Origin: a virus
Strand: one strand, 5' to 3'
Length of the DNA stretch: 55,586 nt
Virus record (IMG/VR): IMGVR_UViG_3300042691_031785
Coordinates: 1-55,586 of that record
This document shows, piece after piece, positions 10,579-45,831 of this stretch. Made by a program: the position numbers and the translations under genes. The number at the start of each line of letters is the position of its first letter. Position 1 is the first letter of the stretch. The notes beneath the pieces are model-generated. The model had not been told where the DNA came from, ran no database searches, and saw nothing but the letters and a program-made list of their open reading frames with translations.

Positions 10579-10586
10579 TATTTATC
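10579..10586 (-). promoter_or_regulatory. Late promoter-like octamer GATAAATA
   Basis: 16 bases before the ATG of 8601-10562; overlaps the stop of the T9SS-like gene. Confidence 0.5.
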
Positions 10587-11664
10587 TCCACTTTTTCTTC
10601 ATTGTCCCATCATCATATACTTCTATGTACATTCCAGGAGCTATAAAGTCATTTATGTCTATCTCTTTTCCAGTAATATCGATTATCTTTATCAGCTTTT
10701 TTGAACTGTCACGATTGTCTATTACAATCACATCAAAACTCTCAAAATTACCGTCAAAATCAGTTTGAGTCAGTCGGTAATAATTAAAGGATCCTCTAGC
10801 GTATTCGACATCAGAGTAAAAATAATCTAATCTTTGAGTAGAATTACCCGCAGCTGCGACTATCGCTATCTTTTGCCACTCAGCTCCGTTCAAAGATCTT
10901 TCTAGAGTAAAATAATCATTATTGTGCTCAGAAGCAGTGCTCCATTGAAGAAGATTGCGACCTGAGGTAGATACGCCTGAAAATTCAATTAATTCAATTG
11001 GAAGAGTTATTGGAGCGATCTCTATGAGCTCAATATTATCTATCCACCACTCTTCACCGGCTGAATTTGCTCTGCAATAAAGATCAACTGCGACTTGAGT
11101 TATTCCCATGGGTAGGTTAAGTGTGATTGTTGAAGGACCAGTCGCGTTTGCTCCAGTCGGACTAGTATACACATCTCCAGCAGGTGCAGCAGAATTAGTA
11201 AAGGAGCCGTTTGCAGTATGATTGATCACACCAGTAGCGGTGTACGGCCATGTCGCGTTACTGTTTCCTGTGATCCTAAGTTCATTCACATAGCTGACTC
11301 CACCGTTTGTTGATACCTGAACAGACACATAATCGGCAACGTCTACTCCTCTAGTGGTAGCAGTTGAGTTAGAAAAAGTATAGGATGCTAATTTAAACTT
11401 GAATTGATATTGATACGAAGGATTTAGTCCCGTGACGTTAGGCATGGAATACCAGTCCTGTTCTATCGTTGATGTTCCGCTACCTAATCCATAGAGGACT
11501 GCACTTTCAGTAGGAGTGGCTGAGGCATTTGTGAACCATCCAGCAGTGGCCGCCGGCGTCCACCAAATACCGGCCCAGTCCCAAGTTTCCATGTAATCGT
11601 AACGAATGACAGTTTGTGCAGCAAGGCTTAGGTTCAAGCACAAGAATAGTAGTAAGGTTCGCAT
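10582..11664 (-). CDS. Secreted protein with T9SS-type C-terminal sorting domain
   Basis: 360 residues. Signal peptide MRTLLLFLCLNLSLAA, with cleavage likely before Q17. The middle is beta-rich (about 20-210), ending in EEWWIDNIELIEI, typical of secreted beta-sandwich domains. Residues about 217-315 have the sequence common just before sorting signals in Flavobacteria: LPIELIEFSG, LLQWSTASEHNNDYFTLERS and FNYYRLTQTDFDGNFE. The end (IKIIDITGKEID, then APGMYIEVYDDGTMKKKWR) matches type A T9SS sorting domains. Such proteins are exported by Sec and then by T9SS to the cell surface. GATAAATA at 11703-11710 and a hairpin at 11677-11702 precede it. It may be host-derived. Confidence 0.8.
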   Translation of the reverse strand: MRTLLLFLCLNLSLAAQTVIRYDYMETWDWAGIWWTPAATAGWFTNASATPTESAVLYGLGSGTSTIEQDWYSMPNVTGLNPSYQYQFKFKLASYTFSNSTATTRGVDVADYVSVQVSTNGGVSYVNELRITGNSNATWPYTATGVINHTANGSFTNSAAPAGDVYTSPTGANATGPSTITLNLPMGITQVAVDLYCRANSAGEEWWIDNIELIEIAPITLPIELIEFSGVSTSGRNLLQWSTASEHNNDYFTLERSLNGAEWQKIAIVAAAGNSTQRLDYFYSDVEYARGSFNYYRLTQTDFDGNFESFDVIVIDNRDSSKKLIKIIDITGKEIDINDFIAPGMYIEVYDDGTMKKKWR

Positions 11665-11676
11665 GGCGGGCTAGTT

Positions 11677-11702
11677 ATTTTAAGAGTTGGAGCTCTTAAA
11701 AT
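11677..11702 (-). promoter_or_regulatory. 10-bp hairpin in the leader of the T9SS-like gene
   Basis: ATTTTAAGAG and CTCTTAAAAT form a perfect 10-bp stem with a 6-base loop, between the octamer and the ATG. It could be a terminator for upstream transcripts or a leader element in the mRNA of the secreted protein. Confidence 0.45.
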
Positions 11703-11710
11703 TATTTATC
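11703..11710 (-). promoter_or_regulatory. Late promoter-like octamer GATAAATA
   Basis: 38 bases before the ATG of the T9SS-like gene, the longest spacing in the set; a hairpin lies in between. Confidence 0.45.
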
Positions 11711-12794: not shown

Positions 12795-13220
12795 TTATTT
12801 TACTGGATTTTCAGGTTGGGTTCTAGCCCAGGTCAGGTATTTTTCTAGGACGCCATCGGTAGGTTCCACTTTAAGGTTACCCTTCATAAAGATCTCCCAT
12901 GAATCCTGGGCATACTTTCCTATTCCATATAGTTCTTTAGGCTCTTTCCACTCCAGTGTGGTCCAGTCCCTTGAGAAACGCTTGATGGTGTGGGTACGAC
13001 GATTCCTAAAACCCAATGGAGCCAAGAGCTCTGCCATCTCTTCTGAATCCGCTAGAGAAACGTCAGTCGGAGTAGGATACTTCTTAAAGAATTCATCTCT
13101 CACTCGATCCACCTGCTTTCTAGAAGTACAGTTCAACATGATACAACAAACGAGCACCCTCCATGGGTGCTCGTTGTAGATCTCCTGAAGAAGCAAGTAA
13201 GGGCTTTCCTGCTTAATCAT
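12795..13220 (-). CDS. MBD4-like HhH-GPD DNA glycosylase
   Basis: 141 residues, the size of the bare catalytic domain. It follows the human MBD4 glycosylase domain closely: HPWRVLVCCIMLNCTSRKQV (MBD4: DPWKLLIATIFLNRTSGK), then FFKKYPTPTDV, ELLAPLGFRNRRTHTI, helix-hairpin-helix LYGIGKYAQDSW at 97-108, and catalytic Asp122 in EPTDGVLEKY. There is no Fe-S cluster loop, as in MBD4. MBD4 removes thymine or uracil from G mismatches arising by deamination of (methyl)cytosine. A phage enzyme could protect modified DNA or attack modified host DNA. It overlaps the FkbM gene by 8 bases and abuts the glycosyltransferase-like gene. Confidence 0.8.
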   Translation of the reverse strand: MIKQESPYLLLQEIYNEHPWRVLVCCIMLNCTSRKQVDRVRDEFFKKYPTPTDVSLADSEEMAELLAPLGFRNRRTHTIKRFSRDWTTLEWKEPKELYGIGKYAQDSWEIFMKGNLKVEPTDGVLEKYLTWARTQPENPVK

Positions 13221-14013
13221 TTTTGATCGCTACTACGTGAGTGATAAAATTCTTTCCGTATTCGACCGCTTCAATCTTTCTAACTACATCGAAATTGTTC
13301 TCAAGTATAGAAACTATCTCTTGGAATTTTTGCACTCTATTCGCCTTAAGGGGTTTGTACATGAAATGGTACTCTACTATGAAGACTCTAATATTTGACC
13401 AGTCAGTAACCGCTTTAATCAGTTCGTATTCAGCACCTTCAACATCCATCTTGATTGCAGTTGCTCCATGTTCAGCTATTGCATCATTGATGTTTATCGC
13501 TGGTAAGTGCATCACTTCTCTTCCTCTGATCGGAAGTATAGAGTGTTTTCCTGAATCAGTTGAGATAAAGAAATCGATCGTTTCTTCATTTCCAGGAACG
13601 ATTGCCTTTTGGATCACTTCGCATTCTGCTCCAACTCCATTAATATTGATATTCTCAATAGCAAAGGAAGCGTTGTGAGGCAGTGCCTCGTAAGCCAAGA
13701 TCTTTTTTATCTTGGGAAACTGTTTTGCCATTCTTACAGCAAAGAGTCCTATGTGTCCGCCGACGTCTAACCACGTGTCCTCTTGATTAAAGACAGCGTT
13801 CACGTCCATTTCAGGTCCATATGCTGCTGAGGTTAGTGGTTTAATATATTCTCCACTTTTTGGACTCTTTGAGACGTTTGTACTAACGTTGTACTGTATC
13901 TCATTCAGTCCCTTCCTAATATAGAACTGAAAATCTGCGTATCGTGTCTTCCAATCGATTAGTTCAATCTGATTGAACTTTTGAGCTGTCTTAAAATCTA
14001 TTCGAGTATCCAT
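13213..14013 (-). CDS. FkbM-family methyltransferase
   Basis: 266 residues with a Rossmann methyltransferase core: DVGGHIGLFAVRMA (SAM-binding motif I), YEALPHNASF (acidic motif II), and IKMDVEGAEYELIKA followed by IVEYHF, the typical FkbM signature. FkbM enzymes methylate hydroxyl groups, often on sugars or polyketides. Together with the upstream and downstream genes it may modify a glycan or a modified DNA base. Family assignment is strong, substrate unknown. Confidence 0.85.
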   Translation of the reverse strand: MDTRIDFKTAQKFNQIELIDWKTRYADFQFYIRKGLNEIQYNVSTNVSKSPKSGEYIKPLTSAAYGPEMDVNAVFNQEDTWLDVGGHIGLFAVRMAKQFPKIKKILAYEALPHNASFAIENININGVGAECEVIQKAIVPGNEETIDFFISTDSGKHSILPIRGREVMHLPAININDAIAEHGATAIKMDVEGAEYELIKAVTDWSNIRVFIVEYHFMYKPLKANRVQKFQEIVSILENNFDVVRKIEAVEYGKNFITHVVAIKND

Positions 14014-25330: not shown

Positions 25331-25790
25331 TAAAAATCAAATAGCCGATTCCAACCACAGCTAATGCTAGGGAAGAGAGATACGATATTGAATAGATCAA
25401 ATCTTTCCTTCTATAATTAGAAAAATTAAATCCTATCTGAAGAATATATCCATAAAAATCGTCGTTCTTTACCCTCTCGTAGTCAACTGTGATCGAATCG
25501 AGGATTCCCTCTTTAGTTAGAAAATCATTGTACCGATTCATCTTTTCGGAGATCAACTTGAGTTCTACTGATTCTTGTGACGATTCCGAATAGAGAAGAA
25601 GCTCTGGGTTCAAGTCTATTCCTAAGTAAAGGTTTCCTCCTGCGTCAACCTTGAAGCCTATCTTTTCAAGCTTTCCCATCTCATTGAGCTCAAAGATTAT
25701 CCTTTTGTACCTTTTGTACTTAGCGAGCTCGTCGTAATTACTCCTTAGCTTTTTATAAGCAAATATCGGAGATAAGTAATTTAGATTCAT
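25326..25790 (-). CDS. Tail-anchored membrane protein next to the sigma factor
   Basis: 154 residues, soluble for about 130, ending in a hydrophobic segment ([20 protein letters not shown]) that would anchor the C-terminus in the membrane. The gene overlaps the sigma factor stop by four bases (ATGA), so the two are translated together. A membrane protein coupled to an ECF sigma recalls the sigma/anti-sigma arrangement of bacteria, but no anti-sigma motif (such as a zinc-binding HxxxCxxC) is present. Confidence 0.6.
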
Positions 25791-26413
25791 AGTATCATCT
25801 TGATTTTTTCGATCAGGTGAGGGTTCTTCTTGATGACAGAATTCTTGATGTCCGTCCTGATCTTTCTAAGTTTAGTCTTTACTGTGTTTTCGTTTATCTC
25901 ATAGTCTATCGCTATCTGACGAACCTTTTTGTTCTTGATCATCTTATCGATTGCTATGCTCTTTAGAAGTGGGTCCTCAATCAAGTATATCTCGCCGACC
26001 GTTGTGCTGTATAGGTCGTCGATGTCAGTATGAGAGCTCGTAAAGTCCAATGAGTCGTCTTCACAGTCTACTCTTGTGTACATCGTATCGATGTCATAGT
26101 GACAGTGCTTCTTTTCTGAGTGTAGGTAGTAGAGAGTTTCGTTTCTAGCGATTGTATAGATCCAAGTAGTGAACCTGCCCTTTTCGAAATCGAATTTTTC
26201 TAGGTTCTTAAATATCTTCTTAAGCGTCCACTGTAGTGCCTCTTGAGTGTCTGTCTCGTTCTTACAAAATTTCCAAATGTAGTACTTTAGCTTTGGGTAG
26301 ATAAGTTGAGCTAACTCATTTCGTTCTCTTTCTGAGTTCTTGTTAGTTAGTAGGATTTGTGATATTTCTTGAATTCTTTCATTGATTTTGTTGTTGGTTG
26401 ACTCGTATTTCAT
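25787..26413 (-). CDS. ECF-like RNA polymerase sigma factor
   Basis: 208 residues with sigma region 2 (about 33-100; includes [20 protein letters not shown], then the [12 protein letters not shown] block at 81-92 that contacts core and the -10 element) and region 4 (about 145-195; [20 protein letters not shown] helix-turn-helix). Region 3 is short, as in ECF sigmas. It directs host RNA polymerase to a subset of promoters. It lies just after the terminase genes, in a late region where an ATAAATA octamer precedes many genes, so a late-transcription role parallel to T4 gp55 is the main hypothesis. A host-derived regulator is the alternative. Confidence 0.85.
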
Positions 26414-31499: not shown

Positions 31500-31507
31500 G
31501 ATAAATA
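31500..31507 (+). promoter_or_regulatory. Late promoter-like octamer GATAAATA
   Basis: 17 bases before the ATG of 31525-32844, start of the plus-strand cassette. Confidence 0.55.
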
Positions 31508-32874: not shown

Positions 32875-32882
32875 GATAAATA
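32875..32882 (+). promoter_or_regulatory. Late promoter-like octamer GATAAATA
   Basis: 22 bases before the ATG of 32905-34335. Confidence 0.5.
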
Positions 32883-40372: not shown

Positions 40373-40380
40373 GATAAATA
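40373..40380 (+). promoter_or_regulatory. Late promoter-like octamer GATAAATA
   Basis: 16 bases before the ATG of 40397-40708; context AGATAAATAATAAAAAAC is nearly identical to the minus-strand copies at 4955 and 10579. Confidence 0.55.
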
Positions 40381-44469: not shown

Positions 44470-45012
44470 TTATTTTCTAGTATTCCTTTTTTCATTTATG
44501 AATTGAGCATAAGAGAGAACCTTTGATTCGTTCATCTTTTTTGGTTTACCCTCTTCCTTTATGATAAGTTCGCCTAATACTTCTAATCTTCCCATCTCAG
44601 TCTGAAATTCTATTTGTGACATGGAGGTAGAGATCTTATCATAAGTTCTTTTGAATTCTTTCTTTGCTTCAGCTAAATCAAATTTTCCGGCTGCTGCTTT
44701 CTTGTAGTAAGGAAGCTTGACCTTGAAGTGGTGCCAAGTCAACAGTGCAAACCCGCCCTTTTCTTTAGCGGTATTCACTATCTTCTCAGCTCCTGCTTCT
44801 CTGGCATTAGCAAATTCGGAGAAAGAATCTTTTGCTTTCTTCGACTCATTGGCGGCCTCATCTTTAGACGCTTCGATCGCTTGCAATTGTTTCACTGCTT
44901 TTGAACGACTTGGGTGAGTTCCTAAGAGCTTTCTCTTTCCTCTTACCTTCTTTTTAGAATAGACTTTGTACACCTTTCCGTGCTTCTCTATCGTTTCATT
45001 TATCGAATTCAT
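44470..45012 (-). CDS. Basic protein with capsid-targeting-like peptide at its C-terminus
   Basis: 180 residues. The N-terminal domain (KVYSKKKVRGKRKLLGTHPS, then RSKAVKQLQAIEASK) is a small basic motif seen in other large DNA viruses. The last residues, KVLSYAQFINEKRNTRK, carry the targeting pattern with INE at 172-174, here at the C-terminus instead of the N-terminus. Another candidate head-internal protein. Start overlaps the upstream gene by 17 bases. Confidence 0.65.
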   Translation of the reverse strand: MNSINETIEKHGKVYKVYSKKKVRGKRKLLGTHPSRSKAVKQLQAIEASKDEAANESKKAKDSFSEFANAREAGAEKIVNTAKEKGGFALLTWHHFKVKLPYYKKAAAGKFDLAEAKKEFKRTYDKISTSMSQIEFQTEMGRLEVLGELIIKEEGKPKKMNESKVLSYAQFINEKRNTRK

Positions 45013-45268
45013 AGCTCTTTACTATTTTTACTCTTAACGTGTTCGTTCCTTTTATTACTCGGTGCCACTCTCCTCTAGCTATAAAGACTGACGAATTCAA
45101 GCTTTGAGGTAATCTATTCTCTAACTGTATCTGCCAGTCAGTGGGTTCGATTGCGACCACCATTCTATCCTCATCGTCACGGTGCCACTTAAGGTGGATA
45201 GGATCGATTGAGTCATCGAATGTCCTGATCACATGCTCGCTATTCTCAACCTCCTCGTAGATCATCAC
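44996..45268 (-). CDS. Small conserved phage protein, 90 aa (cupin-like pattern)
   Basis: 90 residues. IHLKWHRDDEDRMVVAIEPT, followed by DWQIQLENRLPQSLN and FIARGEWHRVIKG, is typical of small T4-like phage proteins with a cupin-like strand order and two HxxDxD/WHR histidines. Possible metal or ligand binding; function unknown. It overlaps both neighbours. Confidence 0.6.
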   Translation of the reverse strand: MMIYEEVENSEHVIRTFDDSIDPIHLKWHRDDEDRMVVAIEPTDWQIQLENRLPQSLNSSVFIARGEWHRVIKGTNTLRVKIVKSYEFDK

Positions 45269-45831
45269 CAGAATCCAGGATAAGTTTTACCGCCCCAAAG
45301 GTGAGCGTATCGGTTTATTCTACATGCCCAATAGCCGGCTTTAGTTCTGTCCTTCTTCTCAGCACATCTGTGTCGAGCAGCAAAGGATTTTCTAGCCTTT
45401 GGATTAGAGACCTTTGCGCTAAGTCCAGGATCTCCAAACTGTATCTTTTTAACGTTTCCAGTCTGTGGGTTTCTAACGTAGACTACGTATTTTTTAGAGC
45501 CTCCTCTAGTGGGATAGTTTAATCGTGGTTTCTTCTCCTCATTTAGATCCATCTCTTCTAATGGAAGATCTAGAGGAACCTCTATTCCTAAGTATGAACC
45601 GGTCATGCCAAGATCAGTAGTTTCCAATAGCAGTCGATCAATTCCTTCTAGCAATAGGCGTCCGTTAAAATAAAGATCACGAGCCTCTGCTAGGATCTCA
45701 ACGTGAGCCGAACTTCCTGGACGATAGACTGATTCTGTGATACTGTAACCCTTTTTCACGTGGTACGTTAGACCCTCAGATATTGCTTGAGTGCCTAAAA
45801 ATTGTGAGTAACTCTTTATTCTAGTTTCCAT
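45265..45831 (-). CDS. Head-associated protein with capsid-targeting-like N-terminus and Cys/Arg C-terminal domain
   Basis: 188 residues. The start METRIKSYSQFLGTQAISE fits the targeting pattern with ISE at 17-19. The C-terminal 75 residues (KKYVVYVRNPQTGNVKKIQF, then ARHRCAEKKDRTKAGYWACR) form a conserved-looking basic domain with two cysteines, seen fused or adjacent to head proteins in T4-like and jumbo phages. AATAAATA at 45839-45846 is 7 bases before the ATG. Probably DNA- or capsid-bound inside the head. Confidence 0.7.
   Translation of the reverse strand: METRIKSYSQFLGTQAISEGLTYHVKKGYSITESVYRPGSSAHVEILAEARDLYFNGRLLLEGIDRLLLETTDLGMTGSYLGIEVPLDLPLEEMDLNEEKKPRLNYPTRGGSKKYVVYVRNPQTGNVKKIQFGDPGLSAKVSNPKARKSFAARHRCAEKKDRTKAGYWACRINRYAHLWGGKTYPGFW

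Follow-up and report, generated by a model that had tools for sequence, protein, structure and literature searches.

Phage-encoded cargo of the type IX secretion system (T9SS) is a known concept, because Cryophage encodes three T9SS-tagged proteins, for which the authors propose a hijack of the host system (PMC7468147), and crAss-like phages carry T9SS sorting domains near BACON ORFs (PMC6949934). The locus described here resembles Cryophage in that a phage encodes secreted proteins bearing T9SS signals, and the crAss-like phages in that T9SS sorting domains are encoded by Bacteroidota phages, near structural genes. The Cryophage cargo, however, varies between variants and comprises annotated enzymes as well as a PA14 protein, with type A domains that are recognised, whereas in the present case many phages share a MAM-like protein that is conserved and has a short tail that is not recognised. 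The crAss-like proteins, in turn, belong to gut phages and have a different passenger (BACON) and a recognised sorting domain. In the literature searched (open-licence PMC), we found no description of the short tail class, of its swaps or of its spread, and the class and its breadth appear to be new.

The described domain to which this tail can best be compared is the T9SS type A sorting domain (PF18962, TIGR04183), a seven-strand 3+4 Ig-like sandwich of 67–100 residues, whose motifs have been named A to E (PMC10202324). The lysines of motif E are required in the type A domains studied, and motifs D and E, as well as B in a model, were assigned to contacts with PorM and PorV (PMC10202324), while Gly699 of RgpB, in motif B (Lb3b4), is functional (PMC11285876). 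The short tail has the same C-terminal position in a protein with a Sec signal peptide, has motif B with the functional Gly, motif D and a basic motif E, and is interchangeable with the canonical domain on two passenger families. In contrast to the canonical domain, it comprises only about 45 residues, has neither motif A nor the b1/b2/b5 sheet, and is not matched by the curated models. We consider it probable that the phage protein is built as cargo of the host T9SS, entering by Sec, exported through the short tail, made late and adhesin-like in nature.

Gene, signal peptide and phage origin

The DNA analysed (the window) is a linear IMG/VR record of 55,586 bases. The initial annotation had placed in it a gene for a 360-residue product, and this ORF is present at 10582–11664, on the minus strand (read from 11664 to 10582). 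The gene and its parts, all on the minus strand, are the following:

10582–11664, minus: putative T9SS cargo gene, phage-encoded (360-aa ORF; 51 homologous viral loci)
11617–11664, minus: Sec/SPI signal peptide, residues 1–16, with Gln17 at +1 (Q-rule; Gln17 invariant in homologues)
11017–11616, minus: passenger, residues 17–216, MAM/carbohydrate-binding-like beta sandwich ending EEWWIDNIEL (alignment and structure model)
10717–11007, minus: fibronectin-like domain, residues 220–316 (LPIEL...TASEHNNDYFTLERS...YYRLTQTDFDG), of a type that most of the bacterial proteins found have ahead of a canonical sorting domain
10585–10716, minus: short C-terminal sorting tail, residues 317–360, about 45 residues (family and bacterial tail alignments, model)
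10660–10686, minus: motif B / Lb3b4 equivalent, IIDITGKEI, with Gly332
10615–10638, minus: motif D equivalent, PGMYIEVY (global profile alignment)
10585–10602, minus: motif E equivalent, basic C-terminus MKKKWR (family alignment and global profile alignment)

The Sec signal peptide that had been claimed for the product is also borne out, with a hydrophobic N-terminus that ends in LAA immediately before Gln17. This Gln at +1 is invariant in 26 of 26 aligned family members, against a background Gln frequency of 2.9%. Signal peptides were judged here by inspection of the sequence. In Bacteroidetes, Gln is the first mature residue of signal peptidase I substrates (the Q-rule, PMC5837995), and the cargo protein follows this pattern of a signal peptide and then Gln at +1, so that Gln would be exposed at the mature N-terminus in the same way; it differs from those substrates in being encoded by a phage.

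That this is a phage gene is confirmed by the terminase, baseplate wedge and head closure genes in the window, which is therefore a tailed phage or a fragment of one. Homologues in other phages, which the annotation had suggested looking for, do exist, since 51 loci in viral contigs encode relatives of the cargo protein. INPHARED contains no close phage, the matches there being distant and confined to four huge uncultured phages, and the first 25 kb of the window gave no megablast match. A Shine-Dalgarno-like sequence lies within 20 nt of the start in one of the 48 window genes examined and is absent from the other 47, as expected for a Bacteroidota host, and we infer that the virus infects a member of this phylum. 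The domain types of the protein are typical of secreted Bacteroidota proteins, as they would be if host DNA had been misassigned to a virus. The probability of such a misassignment is negligible: the structural and packaging genes named above are in the window, the relatives are in 51 viral contigs, three of them with the same gene order, and the passenger was not found in genome_contigs, where two peptide patterns gave 36 matches and none was confirmed. Synteny with other viral contigs already largely refutes this explanation.

Sequence and predicted structure of the short tail

The initial annotation had assigned a T9SS sorting domain to the end of the protein, and had proposed that it would match the curated sorting models (Por_Secre_tail) and fold as a seven-strand Ig-like domain. 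Neither proposal stands. No Pfam or NCBIfam family was found at E ≤ 10, the type B (TIGR04131/PF13585) and type C sorting domains have no match in the cargo protein, and the PF18962 search of the whole window was empty. The structure model gives three to four strands in the tail, at residues 324–329, 334–335, 345–350 and 355–359 in the full-length protein, and three strands plus a short one when the tail is modelled alone (pLDDT 84.6). The four sequence strings on which the assignment relied are all present, but LPIELIEFSG and LLQWSTASEHNNDYFTLERS belong to the fibronectin-like domain and not to a sorting domain.

The short tail corresponds in length to half of a canonical sorting domain. Motifs B, D and E are retained in the tail, while motif A (the YPNP region) is absent from the short-tail alignments, and the tail ends 0–5 residues from the stop in the phage and in nearly all bacterial proteins. 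Comparison of the phage with the bacterial short tails by hhalign gave a probability of 99.5% and an E-value of 1e-22, and by this measure the two are one family. Against 34 canonical domains, the hhalign similarity is local, covering 15–17 columns with E-values of 3e-5 to 1e-4; the scores are 22.5–24.9, compared with a maximum of 16.1 in 60 column shuffles and 7.7 for the reversed profile. The core of this match is motif B, where IIDITGKEI is aligned with IFDMNGRRV of RgpB, and Gly332, the counterpart of Gly699, is invariant in 26 of 26 sequences. A forced global alignment places, with low confidence, the GxY strand and the basic end of the tail on motifs D and E, with a gap at b4–b5. Since motifs B, D and E are kept and are those with published PorM and PorV contacts, the short tail looks like the recognition half of the domain.

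Two independent comparisons with the PDB, each of them weak, point in the same direction at the level of a hint, a T9SS substrate domain being among the first three entries in both. In a profile search, a T9SS substrate domain (8glj_D) ranked third with an E-value of 0.89, which is individually not significant. The fold search with the tail alone returned nothing significant, the second-ranked entry being RemA-CTD in a T9SS complex (8gl6_D, E 1.7). The single cargo protein, compared with the PDB by sequence, gave chance matches only.

Exchange with canonical domains and occurrence in bacteria

Nearly all complete homologues of the cargo protein end in a sorting-type tail, which is short in most of them. 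L046, together with L035, L037 and L039, which are nearly identical to it, has a 71% identical passenger but ends in a canonical type A domain, and the L046 tail scores 41.8 bits with PF18962 (cut-off 27) and 35.2 bits with TIGR04183 (cut-off 23). The same exchange was observed for endonuclease I. With the short-tailed protein of Brumimicrobium mesophilum (L100) as the query, 27 homologues were found, of which 21 have a canonical domain, one a short tail (L126) and five neither; judging from these endings, this is a second, independent swap. Natural interchange with the canonical domain on one passenger is therefore found both in the phage family and in a bacterial enzyme.

The profile of the phage tails matches 22 of the 296 genomes of the class. 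In the Flavobacteriales genome that contains L087 (G001, 1.8 Mb) it finds 28 copies at E ≤ 0.1 and 24 at E ≤ 1e-4, and in five other genomes one to four copies. The bacterial short tail lies at the C-terminus, or within about five residues of it, in unrelated proteins, mostly with a visible signal peptide. These include endonuclease I (L100), a PHA-depolymerase-like esterase (L113), an exo/endonuclease-phosphatase protein (L096) and leucine-rich-repeat proteins. Loci L096, L101, L106, L109 and L111–L114 are among the G001 copies. Sorting-domain models gave no match on the nine bacterial short-tail proteins tested, and the secretome of G001 is for this reason under-annotated. SprA and canonical cargo are present in 26 of 26 short-tail genomes tested; however, SprA is present in 288 of the 296 genomes of the class sample, and being near-universal its co-occurrence with the short tail does not discriminate.

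These data bear on the possibility that the protein is exported by Sec only, to the periplasm or to the inner face of the outer membrane, and that its tail is a decayed, non-working sorting domain. Half of the canonical fold is indeed missing, together with any model match, and canonical domains with single-point or loop mutations no longer support secretion (PMC11285876). Decay, however, would not preserve the Gly of motif B, the D strand and the basic end. Moreover, 26 diverged phage proteins have the conserved tail at their very C-terminus, and unrelated enzymes secreted by bacteria carry it too, with up to 24–28 copies in one genome, and for HBP35 the signal was reported to lie within the last 22 residues (PMC11285876). 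We regard export by Sec only as rather unlikely, and favour a tail that is read by the T9SS.

Short tails in further phages

A profile of the bacterial short tails identified 44 further IMG/VR viral contigs. The proteins of this second phage set (L149–L191) are mostly 620–970 aa long, and GCMD..A.NYNP..DDGSC repeats are present in those whose whole sequence was read. In all 41 proteins with complete N-termini, the N-terminus is hydrophobic and is followed by a pair of a small residue and Gln. One phage protein (L158) has an N-terminal MAM domain (PF00629, E 4.6e-21), and in locus L092 the short tail is joined to GEVED and T9SS-associated galactose-binding domains. A trypsin with a short tail (L192) was found on a 15.8 kb IMG/VR contig, which may be host DNA. 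The match in the marine virus AG-345-P14 was set aside, being weak, located over the repeat region and in a virus that one paper describes as a Prochlorococcus phage.

Passenger and fibronectin-like domain

The passenger is the most conserved part of the protein, with a mean column identity of 64% in the family alignment, compared with 52% for the C-terminal half, which suggests that the body and not the signal is the working part. The modelled protein resembles the MAM-Ig module 2c9a (E 5.6e-7) and also GH2 beta-sandwich enzymes, the TM-scores of this multidomain model being low; the Pfam search of the cargo protein gave no match to the MAM domain (PF00629). The fibronectin-like domain is modelled with pLDDT mostly of 85–95. 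A search of bacterial genomes with the C-terminal half found 37 Bacteroidota loci, in which this domain is mostly followed by a canonical sorting domain, and in L087 by the short tail instead. The conservation and the modelled fold of the passenger suggest that the cargo protein is a binding protein, placed outside the cell late in infection.

The same export signals would be expected of a jamming substrate, which would enter the T9SS late and saturate or block the translocon and the surface apparatus, so that later phages dependent on the T9SS or on gliding could not adsorb. Flavobacterium T9SS and gliding mutants are often phage resistant, which would fit such a role, and for which our literature search brought no confirmation. 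Against it, the passenger is the most conserved part, and there is no sign of a stop-transfer or blocking element in the protein, which makes jamming very unlikely and leaves an exported binding protein as our preferred reading.

Upstream elements and gene neighbourhood

The following elements lie upstream of the cargo gene or repeat its octamer elsewhere in the window:

11703–11710, minus: late-promoter-like octamer GATAAATA, 38 bp upstream of the cargo-gene start
11677–11702, minus: inverted repeat with 10-bp arms and a 6-base loop, separating the octamer from the start codon, with imperfect conservation in L004
4955–4962, 10579–10586, 11703–11710, 16786–16793 and 25323–25330, minus: copies of GATAAATA
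31500–31507, 32875–32882 and 40373–40380, plus: copies of GATAAATA

The late-like octamer reported upstream of the gene was thus found where expected. It occurs eight times in the window, each time on the right strand and within 50 bp upstream of a gene start, and ranks first of 168 letter permutations for this upstream placement. In L004 and L036, two syntenic phages, AATAAATA lies close to the corresponding position. The octamer is a probable late promoter element, and late expression of the cargo gene is plausible. The window also contains a sigma-factor-like gene (25787–26413) and a perfect inverted repeat with 11-bp arms at 13149–13175 (AACGAGCACCC...GGGTGCTCGTT).

Adjoining the cargo gene, 12795–14013 encodes an HhH-GPD base-excision-repair-like protein and an FkbM-type methyltransferase, and the gene order with these two genes is kept in L004, L036 and L038. 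Two window genes at 44470–45831, 33 kb away, have homologues that immediately precede the cargo gene in a different group of phages (L002, L003, L010–L012, L014, L016, L019, L021 and L031–L034), and in L012, L017, L019 and L021 genes for an AAA+ ATPase, a cobalamin-biosynthesis-like protein and GroEL are located downstream of it. Overall, the neighbours vary with the phage group and are an HNH endonuclease, an AAA+ ATPase, a cobalamin-biosynthesis-like protein, GroEL or capsid genes, and no constant partner gene was found among the phage groups compared. Since the passenger is conserved, was not found in bacteria with the two patterns, and is encoded in differing neighbourhoods, selection seems to act on the exported body itself.

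The neighbourhood is also where a virion protein has to be considered, one that decorates the capsid or forms a tail appendage, with Ig-like domains acquired from host proteins and a purely structural C-terminal tail. Ig-like and FnIII domains are common on virions. In the group of L005, L006, L007, L020 and L041 the cargo gene is one or two genes from that of the major capsid protein, and in the window it sits among uncharacterised late-strand genes. However, the Q-rule signal peptide of 26 out of 26 members would export the protein from the cytoplasm, where virions are assembled, the neighbourhood differs between phage groups, and within the family a bona fide sorting domain can take the place of the tail. 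A virion protein is therefore unlikely in our judgement, and we retain secreted cargo as the explanation.

Proposed export route

In the route that we propose, the Q-rule signal peptide would direct passage through Sec and be removed before Gln17. The host T9SS translocon (SprA, PorV) would then read the tail of about 45 residues, as homology and the natural domain swaps suggest, and move the MAM-like and fibronectin-like body across the outer membrane. The tail would act as a minimal type-A-like signal, in which motifs B, D and E are kept and motif A and the b4–b5 stretch have been dropped. With late expression, the protein would reach the cell surface or the medium not long before the cell lyses. 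In the last and least certain step, the beta-sandwich passenger may bind a surface or released ligand, most likely changing the adsorption of virions to the producing cell or its debris. The benefit may be superinfection exclusion, the release of virions from debris or another effect, and the roles put forward in the initial annotation (blocking superinfection, masking receptors, influencing neighbours) are candidates.

The hijack of the host T9SS put forward in the initial annotation is supported in part, on grounds other than those first given. The evidence from sorting models and a seven-strand fold fails, whereas use of the T9SS stands because the tail is exchanged with canonical type A domains in phage and bacterial families, because it recurs at the C-terminus of unrelated secreted Bacteroidota proteins, and because the Q-rule signal peptide is conserved. 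As counterweights at the sequence level, the tail would have to function without a curated-model match, without motif A and half of the Ig fold, and with a similarity to canonical domains that is local.

Implications for T9SS recognition and Bacteroidota phages

We think it likely, on balance, that the tail of about 45 residues represents an undescribed minimal class of T9SS signal, with motifs B, D and E only. This class would exist beside the canonical one in part of the Bacteroidota, with heavy use in some Flavobacteriales that have small genomes, and many phages would have taken it over as a means of delivering adhesin-like proteins to the surface of infected cells or into the medium. It is an open question which portion of the signal the T9SS translocon reads, and structure and recognition are inseparable in canonical domains because these are Ig folds. 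A natural half-size signal that has the PorM/PorV-contact motifs alone, and is swapped with the full domain, offers a direct test of recognition. The short tail would also expose secreted proteins that are missed by present annotation, and it indicates that export via the host secretion machine is widespread among Bacteroidota phages, and not the curiosity of a single phage.
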